NCBI GenBank assembly: GCA_020073585.1
Contig: JAIQEV010000035.1
Span: forward strand, 1 to 39,321
Source: Terriglobia bacterium
Lineage (GTDB): Bacteria; Acidobacteriota; Terriglobia; Acidiferrales; UBA7541
Reading direction: 5' to 3'
DNA: 39,321 nucleotides
Shown here: piece after piece, positions 1 to 11,332 of the stretch
How the letters are laid out: each line of letters opens with the position of its first letter
Position numbering within the stretch: position 1 is the first letter of the stretch
Notes under the pieces: generated by a model
What the model was told of the DNA's origin: nothing
What the model saw: the letters and a program-made list of their open reading frames with translations, nothing else
The model's database searches: none
Translations under genes and position numbers: made by a program

Positions 1-1756
1 TGTTCTCGATGATCTTGCGCCAGCCGATGCCGGTGTTGTAGGCGCAGAAGGAGATTTCGCCCTGCTGCGTGCCGTAGGGAATGATGCACATTTCGGTGCG
101 GCGGAAGTCGTAGTTGAAGAGATCCTGGAACCACATTCCGGCGATGAACAGGAAATTCCAGGGGTCGCTCTGGCGGCGCTTGATAGCGTCTTCGTAAGTA
201 CGATCCGGGGAAGTCTTGCCGTACTTGAACTCGGACTTCTTGGTAAGCGCCCAGGTCTTGTCGAACTTCTTGAAAAGATCCATGAGCGTGAGGCCCTTGG
301 GGGCCTGGAAGGGCTTGTAGTTCTTGAGCAGGGCGAGGCCCATCATGAAGTTCGAGAGGCTCTTGCCACGGGCGGCGTCGGTGATAGCGGTGACGTCCTT
401 GACCAGCTGCGGAGCATCCAGGAAGCGCGGCACGGGCGCCCACTCCTTGGTCTCCTTGTTGATCATGATGGCCGTGCCCACGCCGCAGTTGGGGTGGCAG
501 CCGCAGGAAAGCGCGCCCCACTGCGATTCCGGGCCGTGCACCAGGTCGGAGAAGCCGGCGAAGGTGGAGATGAAGGAGATGGGGAACCAGTCGCGGGTGG
601 GCTCGACCTTGCCCACCTGGGCGCTGACGTCGTTGGCCAGGTGCGAGAGGGTGTAGCGCTGGCGGAGACGGCGCTCCGGGGTGATGTCCTCATCGCGGCC
701 GGTGAAGGAGACCGGCTGGAAGCTGACGAAGGCGATTTTCTTGGGGTTCTCCATCGCGAACTTGACGATGGTGCCGACCTGGTCGTTGTTGACGTTGTTG
801 ACGATGGTCACGACCAGGACGATCTCGATGCCCGCCTCGTGCATGTTTTCGATGGCGCGCAATTTGACGTCGAAGAGATTGCCGACCTGGCGGTGGCTGT
901 TGGCGTCGTTGCCGATGCCGTCAAACTGCAGATAGGCGTAGCGCAGCCCGGCTTCGAAAGCCTGGCGGCAGAACTCCTTGCTCTTGGCGAACTCGATGCC
1001 GTTGGTGGCGGCCTGCACGCTATTGTAGCCGACTTTGCGCGAGTAGCGGATGGCGTCCAGGAAGTACGGGCTCATGGTGGGCTCGCCGCCGGAGAACTGC
1101 ACGGACATCTGGCGGCGGGGCTTGATCTTGACGGCGTTGTCCAGGACTTCCTGGACCTCTTCCCAGGAGAGTTCGTGGACGTAGCCGACCTGGTTGGCGT
1201 CCATGAAGCAGGGGTCGCACATCATGTTGCAGCGGTTGGTGAGGTCCACGGTGAGGACCGCGCCGCGGCCGTAGCGCACGTTGCTGGAGCCGTGCTTGTG
1301 CAGGTCTTCGTCGTTGTGCGCGGGGATGTCGCGGCCGGGGAAGTTCTGCTCGATCCAGTTGAGGAACTTGGCATCGTAGGCCATCAGGTCTTCATAGTGG
1401 CCGTGGATGGGGCATTCCTTGACCATCCAGACCTGGCCGTCGCGCTCGATGATCTGGGCCTTGATCTCGCCGACCTTCTCGTTCATCAGGTCGCGCCAGT
1501 CCTTCTTGCCGTTGATGATGGCGTCGCGCGCTTCTTTCACGCAGTCGGGGCAGAGAGAATCGGTTTGCCGGGGCCAGCCGAGCGTGGGCTTGGATTTTTC
1601 CCAGGACTTGAGCAGCGGCTTCTCCGACCACTGGGGAGTGAAGGAAGGGTTCGGATTGCGCTGGTTGAAAAGTTGGACAGTGTTGAAAGTGAGGCCCGCC
1701 ACCTTGCAGACGGCCGCGTCCACAGCCCTCATGACCTGTGTGCCGATCTTAGACAT
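1..1756 (-). CDS. Radical SAM protein, tetraether / membrane-spanning lipid synthase-like (Tes/Mss type), C-terminus cut by window edge
   Basis: 585 codons are visible. The start is ATG at 1756 behind a GAGAGG ribosome site, and the frame runs off the left edge. Seen: CPDC (C69, C72) and CPIHG (C115) N-terminal cysteine motifs; the radical SAM cluster motif CNMMCDPC (C176, C180, C183); SAM-contacting GGEP at about 223-226; and a further cysteine group CGCHPNC (C418, C420, C424). Known: archaeal tetraether lipid synthase (Tes) has a similar architecture, with an N-terminal SLCPxC...CPxHG module, a radical SAM core and auxiliary clusters, and joins lipid tails by C-C bonds. Bacterial relatives (Mss) are linked to membrane-spanning fatty acids such as iso-diabolic acid. 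Inferred: it couples acyl or alkyl chain ends. It stands alone here, without lipid genes beside it. Radical SAM is near certain; the Tes/Mss assignment is likely but made by eye. Confidence 0.8.
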   Translation of the reverse strand, partial: MSKIGTQVMRAVDAAVCKVAGLTFNTVQLFNQRNPNPSFTPQWSEKPLLKSWEKSKPTLGWPRQTDSLCPDCVKEARDAIINGKKDWRDLMNEKVGEIKAQIIERDGQVWMVKECPIHGHYEDLMAYDAKFLNWIEQNFPGRDIPAHNDEDLHKHGSSNVRYGRGAVLTVDLTNRCNMMCDPCFMDANQVGYVHELSWEEVQEVLDNAVKIKPRRQMSVQFSGGEPTMSPYFLDAIRYSRKVGYNSVQAATNGIEFAKSKEFCRQAFEAGLRYAYLQFDGIGNDANSHRQVGNLFDVKLRAIENMHEAGIEIVLVVTIVNNVNNDQVGTIVKFAMENPKKIAFVSFQPVSFTGRDEDITPERRLRQRYTLSHLANDVSAQVGKVEPTRDWFPISFISTFAGFSDLVHGPESQWGALSCGCHPNCGVGTAIMINKETKEWAPVPRFLDAPQLVKDVTAITDAARGKSLSNFMMGLALLKNYKPFQAPKGLTLMDLFKKFDKTWALTKKSEFKYGKTSPDRTYEDAIKRRQSDPWNFLFIAGMWFQDLFNYDFRRTEMCIIPYGTQQGEISFCAYNTGIGWRKIIEN

Positions 1757-2450
1757 GCTTCTATGCCCTCTCTTTATCTGGAGCGACCGCAAAGCGGTCG
1801 ACTCATTCGAAACTTCGATCCCGTTACATCCCCTGCGAATGGGAAACCCCAGAGTGGTCTGGATGAATCCCCACGGGCCCTGTCAGGCTACCATGCCCGA
1901 CCTACCAGGTCTAAGTCTTTGAGCCAGCGTAGCTTGCCTGTTCCCGGGCGGCAAATCCAGCGCCTTGCGGCGAATGGGCGGGATCGGGGGTCGAACGGTC
2001 GCCTGCGGCAGCCAATGGGGAAAACCGCGGAGTGCTTACCAGGTTACTTTCAGGTCCTTCCGGCCATTTTTCCTCTATTTCCGCAGGCGGCTCCGGGAGG
2101 TTTGCGTGCGCTGCAGCGATCCGCGCGTCCCGCCCCGGCCCGCCGCGCCGCGGCTTGCGGTAATAAGCCTCGTGGCCAATCAATGATTTTTTACGGAGGC
2201 GAACCGTGTTATCTTCGCTGACGGGATCCCCTCTCCCTGGCGGCAACTGCCCCACCCCATCTGGGCCTGGTGCGCAGCAAAACCTCTCCCGGTTCGGACG
2301 GCAAAGTTTCCGCAGCGTCGCAATCCATCCATATTTGCAGCCGGCAGGTGCAACTCCGACGGATCCGCGAAGCGCAACGAGAAAGCAGTTGACCTCACTG
2401 CCGGGAACCCGGGCTCATGCGAACGAGCAAAGTTGGTTAGGAGGAAGCTG
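1757..2450. other. Intergenic region between divergent genes; no convincing gene
   Basis: 694 bases separate the radical SAM gene (minus) from the OmpA-family gene (plus). The frames crossing it have atypical, Pro/Ser/Gly/Arg-rich translations and no recognisable domain. It holds palindrome copy 1 and presumably both promoters. One plus-strand frame (2206-2451) has a GGAGG site six bases before a GTG, and its TGA overlaps the ATG of the next gene. It could be a leader peptide but looks unlike a protein. No tRNA or recognisable riboswitch was found. Confidence 0.6.
1784..1800. repeat. Dispersed 15-bp palindrome GACCGC-AAA-GCGGTC (copy 1)
   Basis: A perfect inverted repeat with 7-bp arms and a 3-nt loop, lying in the leader about 28 nt upstream of the radical SAM start. 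The same palindrome with a different triloop recurs at 12379 and 16370, always between genes. No T-run follows, so it is not a standard terminator. Confidence 0.7.
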
Positions 2451-4229
2451 ATGTGGACGAAACGCTTTATCTTTAGCGTTGCGATGGCTCTTGCTCTGTT
2501 GCTGACAGGCGCCACCGCCACTCTTGCCCAGGACGGCAAACTCAAAATTCACGCCACGCCGAAAGAGGCTTACGTCTTCGTGGACGGCCAGGCCATGAAG
2601 GAAGCCAGCCTCGGCTCGATCAAGCTCGCGCCGGGCGAGCACAAGGTGGAGCTGCGCAACTACGGCTACAAGCCGGCCACGCGCAGCGTCACCATCACTG
2701 CCGGAAAGACCAGCACCCTGGACGTCGCGCTGGAAGCCATTCCGGGAACGGTCTCCGGCCCGTGGGGCGCCCTGACCATTGAGGGAGCCGCGCGCAACGC
2801 GGTGCTGCTGAACGGCAAGACGCCCGAATTCTTCGTGGGGCACGGGGACGAGTTCGACCACGAATGGTGGTGGAAGCAGGAGCTGGTGGTGCCGCCGGGC
2901 ACGCACCAGGTCACCATCCTCGGGGGCGACAAGGAAATCTGGTCCGGGGCCGTGAACGTTCCCGCCGGGCAGCGCGTGGTGCTCGATGCGCACAAGGGTG
3001 TGCGCAAGACCGTGGCCTGGCCGCGCGGCGAGCAGCTCAAGGACGTGGCGCGGTTCAAGGCGGGCATTGCCAGCACGACCGTGGCCGTGGCCAAGCCGAC
3101 GGCGCAACTCTCCGCCAGCGGAGCCGAAGTGAGCTGCGGGAGTTCGGCGCAGCTCAAGTGGTCCTCGACGGATGCGGTGCACGCGGAAATCAGCAACGTG
3201 GGGGCCGTGGCCACCTCCGGCGAACAGACTGTAGCGCCGAAGCAGAACACCACCTATACGCTGACCGCGTCCGGGCCCGGCGGCGCGGCAACGGCTAGCG
3301 CGAGCGTGAACGTCAATGCCGCCATCCAGGCCAAGCTGGAGCTGACGCCCGCGGAGATTCACTACAAGCGCGTGGGCGACCAGGTTGTGGAGCAGGGCAG
3401 CGCCACGCTGACGTGGGCGGCGAACAACGCCGACGCCATCGCCCTGGAACCCTTCGGCGCGGTCGGGGCCAGCGGCAACCGCAGCATCGCCGCGGAGCCG
3501 CAGAAGAAGGATCCCGGGGCCGTGGATGAGACCGTCACCTACACCTTGAACGCCAAGAACGCCTGCGGCGGCGCGGAAACCCGCACCGCCACGCTGCACA
3601 TCACCGGCGTGATCGAATCCCCGGTGGTGAAGCAACTGGAAGCCCGTCTGGCGCTGCACAGCATCTACTTCCCCACCGATCAGCCGACCGCCAGAAAACC
3701 GGATGGCGGGCTGCTCGCCAGCCAGCAGCAGACGCTGACATCGCTGGCCGCGGACTTCAAGAAATATCTGACGCTCAAGCCGGAAGCGCACCTGATCCTC
3801 AGCGGCCACGCCGACCAGCGCGGGGCCGCAGGCTACAACAAGGCCCTGTCGGAGCGGCGGGTGGAGCGCACCAAGCGCTTCCTCGTGGAACAGGGTGTGC
3901 CGGTGGCCAGCCTCGAGACCAAGTCCTTCGGCAGCGAGGAGAACCTGCAAGCTCCCGAGGTCAAGAAATTGATCGAGGAGAATCCCGATCTGAAGGATGC
4001 GGATCGCAGCAAGCTGCTCCAGAACCTGGACGTCATTGTCCTGGCTAACAACCGCCGCGTGGACGTGACCCTGAGCACCACCGGACAGGAGTCGATCCGG
4101 CACTACCCGTTCAACGCCGCAGATTCCCTGACCCTGCTGAGCAAGAAGGGTGTGGGGAAAGAGAAGGTCAAAGCACCTGCGGAAACGAAGGCGCCTGCAG
4201 CCAAGAAGAAGACCAAGAAGCAGCCGTAG
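2451..4229 (+). CDS. OmpA-family envelope protein with PEGA and Ig-like domains
   Basis: 592 residues. ATG at 2451 sits 6 nt after AGGAGG, which decides the start over an in-frame TTG at 2433. In order: a signal peptide ending near TLAQ; a PEGA domain at about 25-95; a linker and Ig-like segments at about 210-390 with repeated YTL-type strands; a C-terminal OmpA domain at about 400-555; and a Lys/Ala/Pro-rich tail. The OmpA part keeps the peptidoglycan-binding pattern (GHADQRG, NKALSERR, NRRV) but carries an extra charged loop of roughly 35 residues before NRRV. Inferred role: an outer-membrane or periplasmic protein anchored to the cell wall by diaminopimelate binding. It is monocistronic, followed by a strong stem-loop at 4257. 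Confidence 0.85.
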   Translation: MWTKRFIFSVAMALALLLTGATATLAQDGKLKIHATPKEAYVFVDGQAMKEASLGSIKLAPGEHKVELRNYGYKPATRSVTITAGKTSTLDVALEAIPGTVSGPWGALTIEGAARNAVLLNGKTPEFFVGHGDEFDHEWWWKQELVVPPGTHQVTILGGDKEIWSGAVNVPAGQRVVLDAHKGVRKTVAWPRGEQLKDVARFKAGIASTTVAVAKPTAQLSASGAEVSCGSSAQLKWSSTDAVHAEISNVGAVATSGEQTVAPKQNTTYTLTASGPGGAATASASVNVNAAIQAKLELTPAEIHYKRVGDQVVEQGSATLTWAANNADAIALEPFGAVGASGNRSIAAEPQKKDPGAVDETVTYTLNAKNACGGAETRTATLHITGVIESPVVKQLEARLALHSIYFPTDQPTARKPDGGLLASQQQTLTSLAADFKKYLTLKPEAHLILSGHADQRGAAGYNKALSERRVERTKRFLVEQGVPVASLETKSFGSEENLQAPEVKKLIEENPDLKDADRSKLLQNLDVIVLANNRRVDVTLSTTGQESIRHYPFNAADSLTLLSKKGVGKEKVKAPAETKAPAAKKKTKKQP

Positions 4230-4455: not shown

Positions 4456-5532
4456 CTAGTCGTTGAGCACGGGACGCAGCAAGGCAATGACGAAATGGGC
4501 GAAGGTGGAAGCGCCTTCATCGAGCTGCACCCAGCGCACCACGCAGTGATCGTTGACGTACTTGCTGACGCGGGCTTCGGGAACGCCCAGATGATCGGCG
4601 AAGCGTTCCTTGATCGATTCCTCGCCGCGGCGTGAAGTGCCGGTGCTGCGCAGGAAATTGGCGATACCGATGCGCAGAGTGGCGCAGTTCTCCGCGTAGT
4701 AATAGGTGGTCTGGTCGGCGTCGGTGATCAGAAACACGCCGGGTCCCGCCGGGGCGCGGTCGGCATGCTCCATGCGTGAGAGCGGGCTAGCCAGCAGGCG
4801 GCGCAACTGCATCTCCAGGTGCGCGAGGCGCGAGGAAAGCGCAGGATCTCCGGAACGCGCACGCGGCCCGGGTCCGGTGGCCTCCCCGCTGGAGATGTAC
4901 GCAGGCTCATGCTCGACGCGGCGGATCACCGGGGCAGCCGCAGGGAGTTCCACGCGGGGTTCCAGCGCTTCCGGGCGGGCCGGCCGCGCGAATGTTTCCG
5001 CCGCTGCCGGGGTCACCGCCGCCGCTTCTCTTCCGCGACGGTGCTTGCGTCCACCGCGGCGTCCGCGGCGGCGGCGCTTGCGCTCCGCCGGAGCGCCGCC
5101 CTCGGCGGAACCACCTTCGTCCGCCGCGCTCGCGGCACTCAATGGGGCTGCCGGTTCGGCTTCCGCGGCGCCGCCTGGAAATGGTTCTTCGATCGAAAAA
5201 TTCGTTTCGGATTCGAACACTTGTCCTCCGGCCTCTCCGGCCGTGCTGCTCAGTTCCGCTTCGTGCGGTCGTTCTGTGACGGCGCCGCCCTCAAGGCGCG
5301 CCGCTGCCTCTTCCGCCTTTTTTTTCCAGTCGGCCCGGCGGAAGCCTTCGGAAGCCGTGCGAAACCAGCGCGCGGCTTGCGCCGCCTGCCCCGCAGCCTC
5401 GAAGTGCTGCGCCAGTTCGAACGCAGCCATGGCGTCGCGCGTCTTCTCGTAGAGTTTCTCGAGTTGGCCAGCGGGGTCGGCACCCGTGCGGGCGCGGCGG
5501 ATGCGTGCTTGGATCTGCTTCCAATCAGCCAT
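4456..5532 (-). CDS. Uncharacterised protein: TPR-like N-terminus, basic low-complexity linker, degenerate GIY-YIG-like C-terminus
   Basis: 358 residues, no signal peptide. About 1-85 is Ala-rich and helical, like TPR repeats (AFELAQHFEAAG, ARWFRTASEGF). The middle is disordered, with an Arg/Lys/Gly block (KRRRRGRRGGRKHRRG) suited to nucleic-acid binding. The last ~95 residues run PGVFLITDADQTTYYYAEN...LRIGI...ALLRPVLND. By eye these follow the PGVYL...LYVGKA...LR...PRYN pattern of UvrC-type GIY-YIG domains. The two motif tyrosines, glycine and catalytic Glu are changed, while an Arg and the final Asn remain. If homologous it is probably not an active nuclease; this is my inference. It is divergent from the FecR-like gene and has its own terminator. 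Confidence 0.7.
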   Translation of the reverse strand: MADWKQIQARIRRARTGADPAGQLEKLYEKTRDAMAAFELAQHFEAAGQAAQAARWFRTASEGFRRADWKKKAEEAAARLEGGAVTERPHEAELSSTAGEAGGQVFESETNFSIEEPFPGGAAEAEPAAPLSAASAADEGGSAEGGAPAERKRRRRGRRGGRKHRRGREAAAVTPAAAETFARPARPEALEPRVELPAAAPVIRRVEHEPAYISSGEATGPGPRARSGDPALSSRLAHLEMQLRRLLASPLSRMEHADRAPAGPGVFLITDADQTTYYYAENCATLRIGIANFLRSTGTSRRGEESIKERFADHLGVPEARVSKYVNDHCVVRWVQLDEGASTFAHFVIALLRPVLND

Positions 5533-5727
5533 GCTGCTTCCGCATTGTAACAGTGTGGGGACCAGGAGGCCAGAAGCATGGCAGTGGGGGACTGGAGGGC
5601 CCCCACAAAAGTACTAGTACAAAGGTATTATTGCTCCTAATAGTCCCCAAAACATTTCCACAGATAAGTCATTGACTTGGTACTATAAATCTCGTACTCT
5701 CCTTCCTAGTCCTCCGGAGGTGCCAGA
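5533..5727. promoter_or_regulatory. Divergent, locally AT-rich promoter region with palindrome GTACTAGTAC
   Basis: This 195-bp gap separates two divergent genes. It holds a stem-loop (5584-5590 with 5600-5606), a perfect 10-bp palindrome at 5611-5620, an interrupted TATTA/TAATA inverted repeat just after it, and a TACTATAAAT stretch near 5679-5688 that could be a -10 element for the plus gene. The AT-richness stands out from its surroundings. The operator and promoter roles are inferred; no -35 box was convincing. Confidence 0.45.
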
Positions 5728-6531: not shown

Positions 6532-6909
6532 CTAGCTCGTGGCGATCGCGTCGATTTCGACGAGCGCATCCTTGGGCAACCGCGCCACCTGGACAGTGGA
6601 GCGCGCCGGCGGGGCCAGCGGAAAGTACTTGCCGTAAACTTCGTTCATCGCCTCGAAATCGTTCAGGTCCTTCAGGTAGACCGTGATCTTGACGATGTGC
6701 TGCATCTTCGAGCCCGCCGCCTCCACGATCCCCTTGAGGTTTTCCATCACGCGCTGGGTCTGCTGCTTGATATCGCCAGCCAGCATCTCCCCGGTCTTGG
6801 GGTCCAGCGCCACCTGGCCGGAAAGGAAGATGAATCCGTTGGCCCGGTTGGCCTGCGAATAGGGTCCAATGGGCTTGGGTCCGCGGTCCGTCAGAACGAC
6901 ATCTTTCAT
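6532..6909 (-). CDS. ridA: RidA family reactive-intermediate deaminase
   Basis: 125 residues, full length for the YjgF/YER057c/UK114 family. RidA hydrolyses enamine/imine intermediates such as 2-aminoacrylate to the keto acid plus ammonia, protecting PLP enzymes in the cytoplasm. Seen: GPYSQA near the N-terminus, FLSGQVALDPKTGEM, and the catalytic-arginine region PARSTVQVARLPKDALVEIDAIA. The start ATG has AAGGAGAG upstream and overlaps the TGA of the preceding M1-like gene as ATGA, so the two are probably translationally coupled. It is the last gene of a run beginning with rel. Confidence 0.93.
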   Translation of the reverse strand: MKDVVLTDRGPKPIGPYSQANRANGFIFLSGQVALDPKTGEMLAGDIKQQTQRVMENLKGIVEAAGSKMQHIVKITVYLKDLNDFEAMNEVYGKYFPLAPPARSTVQVARLPKDALVEIDAIATS

Positions 6910-9112: not shown

Positions 9113-11332
9113 CTAGACGCGGTAGACGCGCTCGACACGGAACACGCCCGCGATCTTCTTGATGTTCGCGAGGATGCCCTCGAGCTGCCGGCGGTCGGAA
9201 ATGTCCAGGTTGGCCCCGATGCGGGCATTGACGCCGTCGGGCTGGCTCTCCAGGTTGCGGATGTTGGTGCCCGTGGCGCTGATGACCGAGGTGATTTCGG
9301 CCAGCACGCCGGGGCGGTCCTTGGTGCGGATCAGCAACTGCACCGGGAAAGTGGTTTTTCCGGCGCCGCCCCACTCCACGGCGATGCGCCGCTCGGACTG
9401 GTAGAGCAGGTTCTGCACGTTGGGACAGGCGCGGTTATGCACGGCCACGCCGCGTCCGCGGGTAATGTACCCGCTGATCTCGTCGCCGGGAATGGGATTG
9501 CAGCATTTGGCGCGAAAAACCAGCAGGTCGTCGTGGCCGCGCACGACCAACGGCGACTCGTCCATCCCCAGCATGCGCTTGACGGTCTTGACCAGCGGCG
9601 CGGCAGTCTCTTCCGCAGCGGGCTCCGCGCCCGGAGGCGGTTCGCCGAGAATCCGCGCGATGACCTGGCGCGCGGAAAACCTTCCGAAGCCTACGGCGGC
9701 GTAGAGATCCTCGGGGCGGCCGCCGGCTCCGCAGTCCGAGGCCGCGCGCGCCAGGTCTTCTTCGGCGATTTTCTTCAGGCTGCGCCCGAAATGGCGCGCC
9801 TCCTTCTCCAGCAGGCGGCGGCCAATGTCCACGGCCTCGGCGCGCTCCTGCACGCTCACCCAGTGGCGGATCTTGCTCTTGGCGCGCGAGGTTTTGACGA
9901 AGCTGAGCCACTCGCGGCTGGGGGTGTGCCCCTTCTGGGTGAGGATCTCGATGACGTCGCCGTTGGCGATCTCGTGGCGCAGGGAGACCATCTGCCCGTT
10001 GAGCTTGGCGCCCACGCACTGGTGCCCGATCTCGGTGTGCACGGTGTAGGCAAAATCCACCGGGGTGGCCCCGCGCGGCAACTCCAGCACGCGCCCCTTG
10101 GGGGTGAAGGCGTAGACCTCGACCGGGGAGAGATCCATCTTCAGCGTGGAGAGGAATTCGCCCGGCTCCTGCATGTCCTGGGTCCACTCCAGCAAGTGGC
10201 GCATCCAGCCGATGCGCCGGTCGTCGGCGCCCGAGGCGCTCTTGCCGTCCTTGTATTTCCAGTGCGCGGCGACGCCTTCCTCGGCGATGCGGTGCATCTC
10301 CTGCGTGCGGATCTGCACCTCGAAGGGCTGCCCGCCATGGATCACCGTGGTATGCAGGGACTGGTAGAGATTGGGGCGCGGCATGGCGATGTAGTCCTTG
10401 AAGCGCCCGGGCACCGGCCGCCAGATCTGGTGGATGACGCCGAGCGCCGCATAGCAGTTGCGCTCGGTATCGGTGAGGACGCGGACCGCCAGCCAGTCGT
10501 AGATCTGCTCGAGGGGCCGCTGCTGGCGCAGGCTCTTGCGATGCAGCGAGTACAGGCCCTTCACCCGCCCCTCGACCTCCGCGGGGACGCCGCTGGCGAC
10601 CAGCTTCTTGCGGATGGTGTCCTGCACTTCGTCCAGGAATTTCTGGTGGGCCTTGCTCTTTTCCGCCACTTCCTTCTGCAGTTCCAGATAGGCGTCCGGC
10701 TCGAGGTGCGGAAAGGCCAAATCTTCCAGTTCGCCGCGGAGCACGCTCATGCCCAGGCGGTGGGCGATAGGGGCATAGAGCTCCAGGGTCTCGCGGGCGA
10801 TGCGCTTCTGCTTCTCGGGGTCGAGATACTCCAGGGTGCGCATGTTGTGCAGGCGGTCGGCCAACTTGACCAGGACCACGCGGACGTCGTTGACCATGGC
10901 CAGCAGCATCTTGCGGACGTTTTCGGCCTGGCGGGCTTCCGGGGCCAGCAGATCGAGGCGGCTGATCTTGGTGACGCCCTCGACCAGCCGCGCCGTCTCT
11001 TCTCCGAAAAGCTCGGCGAGCTTGGCCAGGGGCAGCTTGGTGTCTTCGACGACGTCGTGCAGCAGGGCCGCCGCCAGGGTGGTGGCGTCCATGCGCAGGT
11101 CGGCCAGAATGTGCGCCACCTCGAGGGGATGCGAAAGGTAGGGCTCGCCGGATTGGCGGGTCTGCGACTTGTGCTGGCGGCTGGCCAGCTCGTAGGCGCG
11201 GCGCACCAACTCGGCGTCTTCTCCCGGACGGTTCCGACGCAGCTTCTGCAGCAGCTCTTCGAAACGCAACTCCAGCTGCCGCGCGGTGCGGTCCCGGGTG
11301 AAACTGACCAGCGGATTGTGCAGTCCGGGCAT
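9113..11332 (-). CDS. rel: Bifunctional (p)ppGpp synthetase/hydrolase, RelA/SpoT family
   Basis: 739 residues, normal for a long RSH protein. It makes and degrades the stringent-response alarmone (p)ppGpp in the cytoplasm. Domains in order: HD hydrolase at about 45-200 with intact HPLEVAH, LLHDVVEDT and KLADRLHNMRT; synthetase at about 240-370 (GRVKGLYSLHRKS, YQSLHTTV, EVQIRTQEMH, AAHWKYK); TGS at about 400-460 (VYAFTPKGRVLELPRGATPVDFAY); a zinc-finger/helical region with CCNPIPGD; and a C-terminal ACT domain (VQLLIRTKDRPGVLAEI). The complete HD site argues for a bifunctional enzyme rather than synthetase-only RelA. First gene of the run towards ridA. Confidence 0.95.
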   Translation of the reverse strand: MPGLHNPLVSFTRDRTARQLELRFEELLQKLRRNRPGEDAELVRRAYELASRQHKSQTRQSGEPYLSHPLEVAHILADLRMDATTLAAALLHDVVEDTKLPLAKLAELFGEETARLVEGVTKISRLDLLAPEARQAENVRKMLLAMVNDVRVVLVKLADRLHNMRTLEYLDPEKQKRIARETLELYAPIAHRLGMSVLRGELEDLAFPHLEPDAYLELQKEVAEKSKAHQKFLDEVQDTIRKKLVASGVPAEVEGRVKGLYSLHRKSLRQQRPLEQIYDWLAVRVLTDTERNCYAALGVIHQIWRPVPGRFKDYIAMPRPNLYQSLHTTVIHGGQPFEVQIRTQEMHRIAEEGVAAHWKYKDGKSASGADDRRIGWMRHLLEWTQDMQEPGEFLSTLKMDLSPVEVYAFTPKGRVLELPRGATPVDFAYTVHTEIGHQCVGAKLNGQMVSLRHEIANGDVIEILTQKGHTPSREWLSFVKTSRAKSKIRHWVSVQERAEAVDIGRRLLEKEARHFGRSLKKIAEEDLARAASDCGAGGRPEDLYAAVGFGRFSARQVIARILGEPPPGAEPAAEETAAPLVKTVKRMLGMDESPLVVRGHDDLLVFRAKCCNPIPGDEISGYITRGRGVAVHNRACPNVQNLLYQSERRIAVEWGGAGKTTFPVQLLIRTKDRPGVLAEITSVISATGTNIRNLESQPDGVNARIGANLDISDRRQLEGILANIKKIAGVFRVERVYRV

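Follow-up and report, generated by a model that had tools for sequence, protein, structure and literature searches.

A GIY-YIG-derived, probably non-cleaving domain joined to a TPR-like region and an Arg/Gly-rich linker in one family of Acidobacteriota

Locus, neighbourhood and distribution of the gene

The window, that is, the whole stretch of 39,321 nucleotides analysed, carries a gene for a protein of 358 amino acids whose start codon, in the ORF reading, is the ATG at 5530-5532 (Table 1). The limits given by the first-pass annotation, 4456-5532, were correct, and the open reading frame supplies the strand absent from it, which is the minus strand. From N- to C-terminus the protein comprises a TPR-like region, a linker that is predicted to be disordered and contains an Arg/Gly-rich tract, and finally a GIY-YIG-derived pseudonuclease domain, a layout already proposed in that annotation and borne out here by structure matches and profile alignment.

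Table 1. Features of the locus and of the encoded protein, in window coordinates
Feature	Position	Strand	Basis
Tes-like radical-SAM gene, 5' part, cut by the contig edge (neighbour, not in the protein)	1..1792	minus	Tes model, PDB match of orthologue
OmpA/PEGA-domain gene separating the gene from the radical-SAM gene	2433..4229	plus	
Whole gene, 358 aa	4456..5532	minus	ORF; homologues; purifying selection
Residues 1-82, TPR-like module, five helices	5287..5532	minus	AlphaFold, Foldseek, VIA-align
Residues 151-168, RKRRRRGRRGGRKHRRGR basic tract in linker	5029..5082	minus	Pattern search, charge, pLDDT
Residues 230-248, conserved helix before the domain	4789..4845	minus	Helix in both AlphaFold models; conserved in 52 domains
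Residues 255-358, GIY-YIG-derived pseudonuclease domain	4459..4770	minus	AlphaFold, PDB matches, hhalign
G265-V266-F267, GIY remnant, Tyr lost	4732..4740	minus	Column counts, 52 domains
Y279 to R287, YIG remnant and start of following helix	4672..4698	minus	Column counts, 52 domains
A345-H346-F347, catalytic Glu site (now Ala), then invariant His	4492..4500	minus	Column counts
N357, conserved terminal Asn	4462..4464	minus	46/52
Extended -10-like element TGTTACAAT, 11 nt upstream of the ATG	5544..5552	minus	Pattern in orthologue upstream regions

Homologues were found in 56 of the 101 relatives searched, own genome counted, the best match in another genome having an E-value of 6e-215 and the full-length matches 41-93% identity. 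That presence, together with dN/dS values well below 1 in all eight computable pairs, identifies the frame as a real gene. Its distribution follows the family: 56 of 61 genomes of the own family carry it versus none of the 40 others. With a profile of the C-terminal domain (E of 0.01 or better, pieces counted), a match was obtained in 81 of the 95 genomes from the order, all of them among the 89 of the own family and none among the six of two sister families, and among 297 genomes spread over the phylum the only match was to the own genome. The conservation across Acidobacteriota that the first-pass annotation had proposed to check was thus not seen phylum-wide, the gene being confined in the genomes searched to one family. 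The eight family genomes lacking a match to the domain have stated completeness of 59-92%, and one of them (G005) matches residues 1-172 only. Named contigs bearing the gene are labelled as Candidatus Acidiferrales, Terriglobia, Acidobacteria or Acidobacteriota MAGs, and a plasmid collection yielded no homologues. Ten genomes outside the family matched a profile of the N-terminal domain at 1e-3 or better; they were rejected as homologues, the seven of these stretches that were read by eye being other TPR-like proteins devoid of the C-terminal domain.

The gene, its altered domain included, is under strong purifying selection. Nine pairs were picked by hand, one of them saturated and not computable. 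The C-terminal domain gave dN/dS of 0.007-0.082 in seven pairs, with dS for the domain of 0.08-1.74, so that some pairs are not close, and 0.22 between the window and L003; values for the linker were looser (0.08-0.37) and those for the N-terminus were 0.01-0.14. Upstream, 36 of the 40 orthologues compared carry the pattern TGnTA[CTA]A[AT]T at a distance of 6-19 nt from the start codon, against a mean of 0.12 and a maximum of 2 in 500 composition shuffles that did not correct for relatedness, and the remaining four have, by eye, TGnTAGAAT at a similar place. The comparison covered 40 orthologues, L097-L108 being left out. This arrangement points to a putative extended -10 promoter belonging to the gene itself and to a near-leaderless message. 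A conserved CTGnTACAATGC-like block lies immediately 5' of the start codon, at 5533-5560 in the window and in the 40 orthologue upstream regions, and might be taken as a model promoter of the family.

Downstream of the gene comes a Tes-like radical-SAM gene, of which the window holds the 5' part. Of the 58 places where the pseudonuclease gene occurs, distributed over 56 genomes, 49 have the radical-SAM gene following on the same contig and strand, the distance between the match ends being 304-467 bp in 38 of the 49 and 1.0-6.1 kb in 11; in the other nine places it lies on a different contig or went undetected. The contigs of G044, G055 and G038 extend 62, 12.7 and 74 kb in that direction with no radical-SAM match, which means that the two genes are genuinely unlinked in no fewer than three genomes. 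Since in the window the OmpA/PEGA-domain gene sits on the opposite strand between the two, they do not constitute a single simple operon there, and an operon is not conserved. In 14 loci the upstream flank was of several types and the downstream flank more constant. Outside the family the radical-SAM gene was present in 38 of 40 genomes at E of 1e-100 or better; none of these has the pseudonuclease gene, and in 10 such loci inspected by eye no shared gene stood upstream of it. The link between the two genes is suggestive, and descent alone could account for it. As to the nature of the neighbour, its orthologue in L037 scored 323 bits on the Tes model of NCBIfam (cut-off 450) and matched PDB entry 7tol with an E-value of 7.6e-60. 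Tes homologues have been reported in acidobacteria, and two are suggested as possibly involved in the synthesis of brGDGT (PMC8941075), lipids employed as proxies for past temperature (PMC10087280, PMC13274423).

Further copies and neighbours were seen at the locus or in related genomes. A second radical-SAM match in the own genome (C49:1-894) overlaps the window gene along the query (418-727 versus 4-586), and it consequently looks like a second copy, not the missing 3' part. Several genomes of the same genus (G006-G032; for instance G015:C10, G018:C60 and G022:C1) have a second, divergent Tes-like copy with 41-44% identity, and several of families f9 and f10 one with 52-54% identity. Farther upstream of the gene, the minus strand of the window bears a RidA-type (Ribonuc_L-PSP) gene at 6532-6909 and a RelA/SpoT gene at 9113-11332, both with counterparts in L031.

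Layout of the protein and fold of its C-terminal domain

In the full-length AlphaFold model the N-terminal module (residues 1-82) had pLDDT block means of 80-96. Comparison of the model of residues 1-88 with known structures gave Foldseek and VIA-align lists topped mostly by TPR proteins, the VIA-align Z of the best 50 matches ranging from 12.9 to 9.9, a range (below 13) in which similarity between helical arrays can reflect a shared arrangement; on a TPR model the N-terminus of the window protein scored 13.9 bits (cut-off 26.8). The linker, residues 83-227, is predicted to be disordered, with pLDDT mostly below 50. Within it, the RKRRRRGRRGGRKHRRGR tract carries a net charge of +13 in the window, and a pattern for its core was found in 53 of 54 homologues, the single miss (L018) having the variant tract RQRGRRGG. 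The own genome contains a single occurrence of RRRGRRGGR encoded by CGN and GGN codons. A hydrophobic stretch resembling a membrane helix was absent from the five proteins looked at, out of 54. Matches to the Pfam families NFLD, wHTH and YdaS were short and weak, and were taken as chance or as helix-turn-helix-like helices; no Rfam family reached the gathering score in five sources, and a known defence or phage protein was discarded as an identification, there being no PADLOC match and a single PHROGs match at E of 0.35.

The C-terminal domain was left unfolded in the full-length prediction. Residues 228-358 modelled alone, from an alignment of 12 sequences, reached a pLDDT of 81.4 and a pTM of 0.70, two of the five models being confident (pLDDT 81.4, 81.1, 67.0, 56.0 and 43.3). 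The predicted order is beta-beta-alpha-(alpha-alpha)-beta-alpha, with strands at 265-271, 277-283 and 330-336 and helices at 286-295, 307-315, 319-329 and 341-357, so that the model contains the hairpin, helix, third strand and C-terminal helix that define the GIY-YIG superfamily fold. In a Foldseek search of the PDB the best 20 places were shared by R.Eco29kI, UvrC and the N-terminal domain of one plant glutaredoxin, with a best E-value of 4.3e-3 and no match below 1e-3. VIA-align ranked, among the families listed, R.Eco29kI (Z 8.4, rmsd 3.1, 106 residues aligned), UvrC (Z 8.0, rmsd 2.9, 80 residues) and the plant glutaredoxin entry 2lwf (Z 7.7, rmsd 2.3, 85 residues) before phage T4 EndoII (Z 6.9), the PD-T4-3 restriction enzymes (4.9) and Hpy188I (4.1); matches recognisable as other folds began at Z of 3.0. 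Of these, 2lwf, the PD-T4-3 enzymes and Hpy188I are likewise GIY-YIG proteins. A library of viral structures gave nothing under E of 0.001, several of its top matches bearing the names GIY-YIG or endonuclease. The comparison of folds recommended by the first-pass annotation, for which an unrelated fold was the adverse outcome, thus placed GIY-YIG nucleases at the head of the PDB matches of the predicted model.

The relationship was also sought at the level of profiles. The alignment set was built from 54 proteins, divergent members included, and after removal of two duplicate domains contained 52 domains, a subset of those in the 81 genomes that have the C-terminal domain. Three sets of GIY-YIG proteins were used: 17 UvrC-type domains, meaning PF01541 matches in open frames longer than 400 aa plus two fragments placed there (L079, L083); 13 small GIY-YIG proteins; and eight PF20815-type proteins, of which L093-L095 are over the Pfam cut-off and the plasmid proteins L111-L115 were assigned by similarity to L094 or L095. 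In hhalign, 40 of the family domains scored 27.5 against the UvrC-type set, the best of 100 column shuffles being 20.2, and 16.4 against the small proteins (shuffles 17.5). The 52 domains, controlled with 60 column shuffles and with reversed profiles, which scored 10-16, gave 33.4 against the UvrC-type set (shuffle best 19.0), 41.3 over 98 columns against the PF20815 type (20.4) and 49.6 over 111 columns against both sets together (22.2); against the small proteins the score, 16.9, stayed below the shuffle best of 17.6. The best profile match was therefore the PF20815 (GIY_YIG_2) type, and it extended over the domain in full, with the helical pair and the last strand and helix.

Searches on sequence alone gave weak results. 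On PF20815 the window domain scored 16.0 bits, below the cut-off of 22.4, and the whole protein 13.1; matches to this model at up to E of 10 were obtained in 19 of 40 members, the best at 0.0022, and a Pfam scan of eight divergent members had PF20815 as its best match at E of 0.22. An hmmsearch of PDB sequences with the profile of the domain returned no match. Of the five most divergent members, two carry the motif LPASPGVYLV, GIY Tyr included, and the other three similar forms of it, the reading in this branch being (L/V)PASPGVYLV. With the predicted fold and a profile score above all shuffles in agreement, the first-pass proposal of a GIY-YIG-derived domain with UvrC-type layout was upheld, and the domain is very probably homologous to GIY-YIG.

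State of the former active site

The catalytic positions, as in I-TevI and UvrC (R39 and E76 of UvrC), were mapped by alignment and counted over the 52 domains. Neither catalytic residue is kept in any of them. At the site of the catalytic Arg, position 289, there is Ala in 30 domains, Gly in 20, the window among them, and Glu in two; at the site of the catalytic Glu, position 345, there is Ala in 47, as in the window, and Gly in five. The GIY and YIG motifs are altered in part. The GIY Gly (G265) is invariant, and its Tyr column, occupied by F267 in the window, has Phe in 35 domains, Leu in seven, Tyr in five, Trp in three and Ser and Val in one each. The YIG Tyr (Y279) is present in 51 domains, and the column of the YIG Gly never contains Gly, being Glu in 50 (E281 in the window) and Val and Cys in one each. 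The terminal Asn is replaced by Met in five domains and by Ser in one. Several further columns show strong conservation: R287, H346, Y325 and R333 are found in all 52 domains, C283 in 51, H329 in 50 and C330 in 49.

These counts agree with the first-pass annotation in that the catalytic Glu is gone, the terminal Asn is kept and the residues for cleavage are lost, and amend it at two points. Loss of the motif Tyr and Gly residues, as stated there, applies to the GIY Tyr and the YIG Gly, but the GIY Gly and the YIG Tyr have been retained; and the Arg described as kept is indeed universal, but it is R287, which belongs to the 'NLR' stretch and is non-catalytic, whereas the catalytic one has disappeared. 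The search proposed for homologues with intact catalytic residues found none within the family, the intact relatives being the distant proteins of PF20815 type, which by eye keep GIY, YIG, Arg and Glu, unlike the present domain, which has lost Arg and Glu and falls under the Pfam cut-off. Judged from the alignments, classical catalysis has very probably been lost.

A metal site formed by C283, H329, C330 and H346 was considered and rejected as obligate: C330 is absent in three, H329 in two and C283 in one of the 52 domains, and because these losses, by eye, fall in different members, such a site is unlikely. Separately, the five members L097-L101, of genus g12, form the most divergent branch of the family; they retain the GIY Tyr, have Met instead of the terminal Asn and, in three of the five, Gly instead of C330, and they offer a natural intermediate for ordering the losses.

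Possible roles of the altered domain and its significance

The apparent loss of the cutting residues, in a fold kept near-unchanged under selection, suggests that the domain has been turned to binding in place of cutting. The net charge of the pseudonuclease core has a median of 0 (range -3 to +2, n=52) versus +3 in the UvrC-type domains (range -1 to +8, n=17), the ranges overlapping, also with that of the eight PF20815-type domains (-2 to +9). A neutral core speaks against classical DNA clamping of the GIY-YIG kind by the domain itself, and binding of nucleic acid by the Arg/Gly tract appears plausible; the charge data make the tract a likelier place of contact with nucleic acid than the domain. 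Arg/Gly tracts are also known to bind proteins and lipids. The reading we favour, with a probability of about 0.55, is that of a lineage-specific GIY-YIG pseudonuclease, probably cytosolic, whose role would be in binding and as an adaptor, without cleavage. The dead domain would be a protein- or ligand-binding module arranged around the former active-site pocket, which by position would be lined by the conserved Y279, E281, C283, R287 and H346; the Arg/Gly tract would tether the protein to nucleic acid, either RNA or DNA; and the TPR-like N-terminus would recruit a partner protein.

Other explanations start from the same observations. The protein could be an accessory or regulator of the adjoining Tes-like radical-SAM enzyme, presumed to synthesise membrane-spanning lipids; its TPR-like part would dock on the enzyme and its tract would bind an acidic lipid or a transcript, nucleic-acid binding being then secondary or absent. 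The consistently downstream, same-strand position of the radical-SAM gene in the 49 of 58 places sharing a contig, the Tes-like character of the orthologous neighbour and the greater constancy of the downstream flank favour such a role. It is nevertheless unlikely, given the broken linkage in three genomes, the gaps of more than a kilobase in 11 places, the intervening OmpA gene in the window and the promoter-like element that the pseudonuclease gene has of its own; moreover, the radical-SAM gene does without this gene, or any common upstream gene, outside the family, and shared descent could explain the linkage. A still catalytic but rewired enzyme, with the acid moved to E281, the role of the Arg taken by R287 and the centre completed by H346 and Y279, would make sense of the near-invariance of these four residues at or adjoining the old site, as placed by alignment, and of the very strong constraint on the domain, but E281 is Val or Cys in two members and the core is neutral, and we regard it as decidedly improbable. 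Equally doubtful is a combination of such ideas, a neofunctionalised GIY-YIG domain in which Y279, E281, C283, R287 and H346 would form a new ligand-binding or catalytic site, with nucleic-acid binding coupled to the often adjacent Tes-like enzyme.

Two further explanations concern the domain itself. Its resemblance to GIY-YIG might be coincidental and its fold a different alpha/beta one, as could be argued from the weak sequence-only searches, the modest Foldseek E-values and the two confident models out of five; the profile-profile alignments, the predicted fold and the register of residues agree with each other, however, down to the LPASPGVYLV motif or similar forms of it in the five most divergent members, and a coincidence is very improbable. 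A decaying pseudogene or a functionless relic nuclease would be in keeping with the lost catalytic residues, but is refuted by the selection data, dN/dS being far below 1, and it runs against the presence of the gene in most genomes of the family and the conserved promoter-like element, which leaves it a negligible chance.

Several known proteins resemble parts of this one. The N-terminal GIY-YIG domain of UvrC (1yd6, 1ycz) shares with it the predicted fold, the P-G-V-Y/F-L opening, the YIG Tyr, the L-R stretch and the terminal Asn; unlike UvrC, the present domain has neither the catalytic Arg and Glu nor the YIG Gly, its helical pair preceding the last strand is longer, and the protein is devoid of the C-terminal domains of UvrC and is fused to a TPR-like region and an Arg-rich linker. 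R.Eco29kI and T4 EndoII, active enzymes with an intact site, have the fold in common with the present domain, in which the site is not intact. The N-terminal domain of AtGRXS16 (2lwf) is, like the present one, a GIY-YIG-type fold joined to another functional part, the fusion there being to a chloroplast glutaredoxin, unlike here. A parallel in mode is provided by fungal relatives of Dis3/RNase II, which reportedly keep a nuclease fold without catalysis as an RNA-binding protein (PMC8097288); fold and organism are unrelated, and RNA binding is reported for the fungal proteins only. The statement of the first-pass annotation that no family with this architecture had been described held for the portions of the open-access literature covered, subscription papers lying outside that scope, and no combination of TPR and GIY-YIG was found there.

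GIY-YIG domains are known as cutters. The family described here would offer a clear-cut natural case of a GIY-YIG pseudonuclease, in which a dead version of the domain has been fixed, kept under very strong constraint and fused to a TPR-like part and an Arg/Gly tract across a bacterial family. For these acidobacteria it represents an uncharacterised, nearly family-wide gene, often located next to a Tes homologue similar to those for which PMC8941075 suggests a possible part in brGDGT synthesis.
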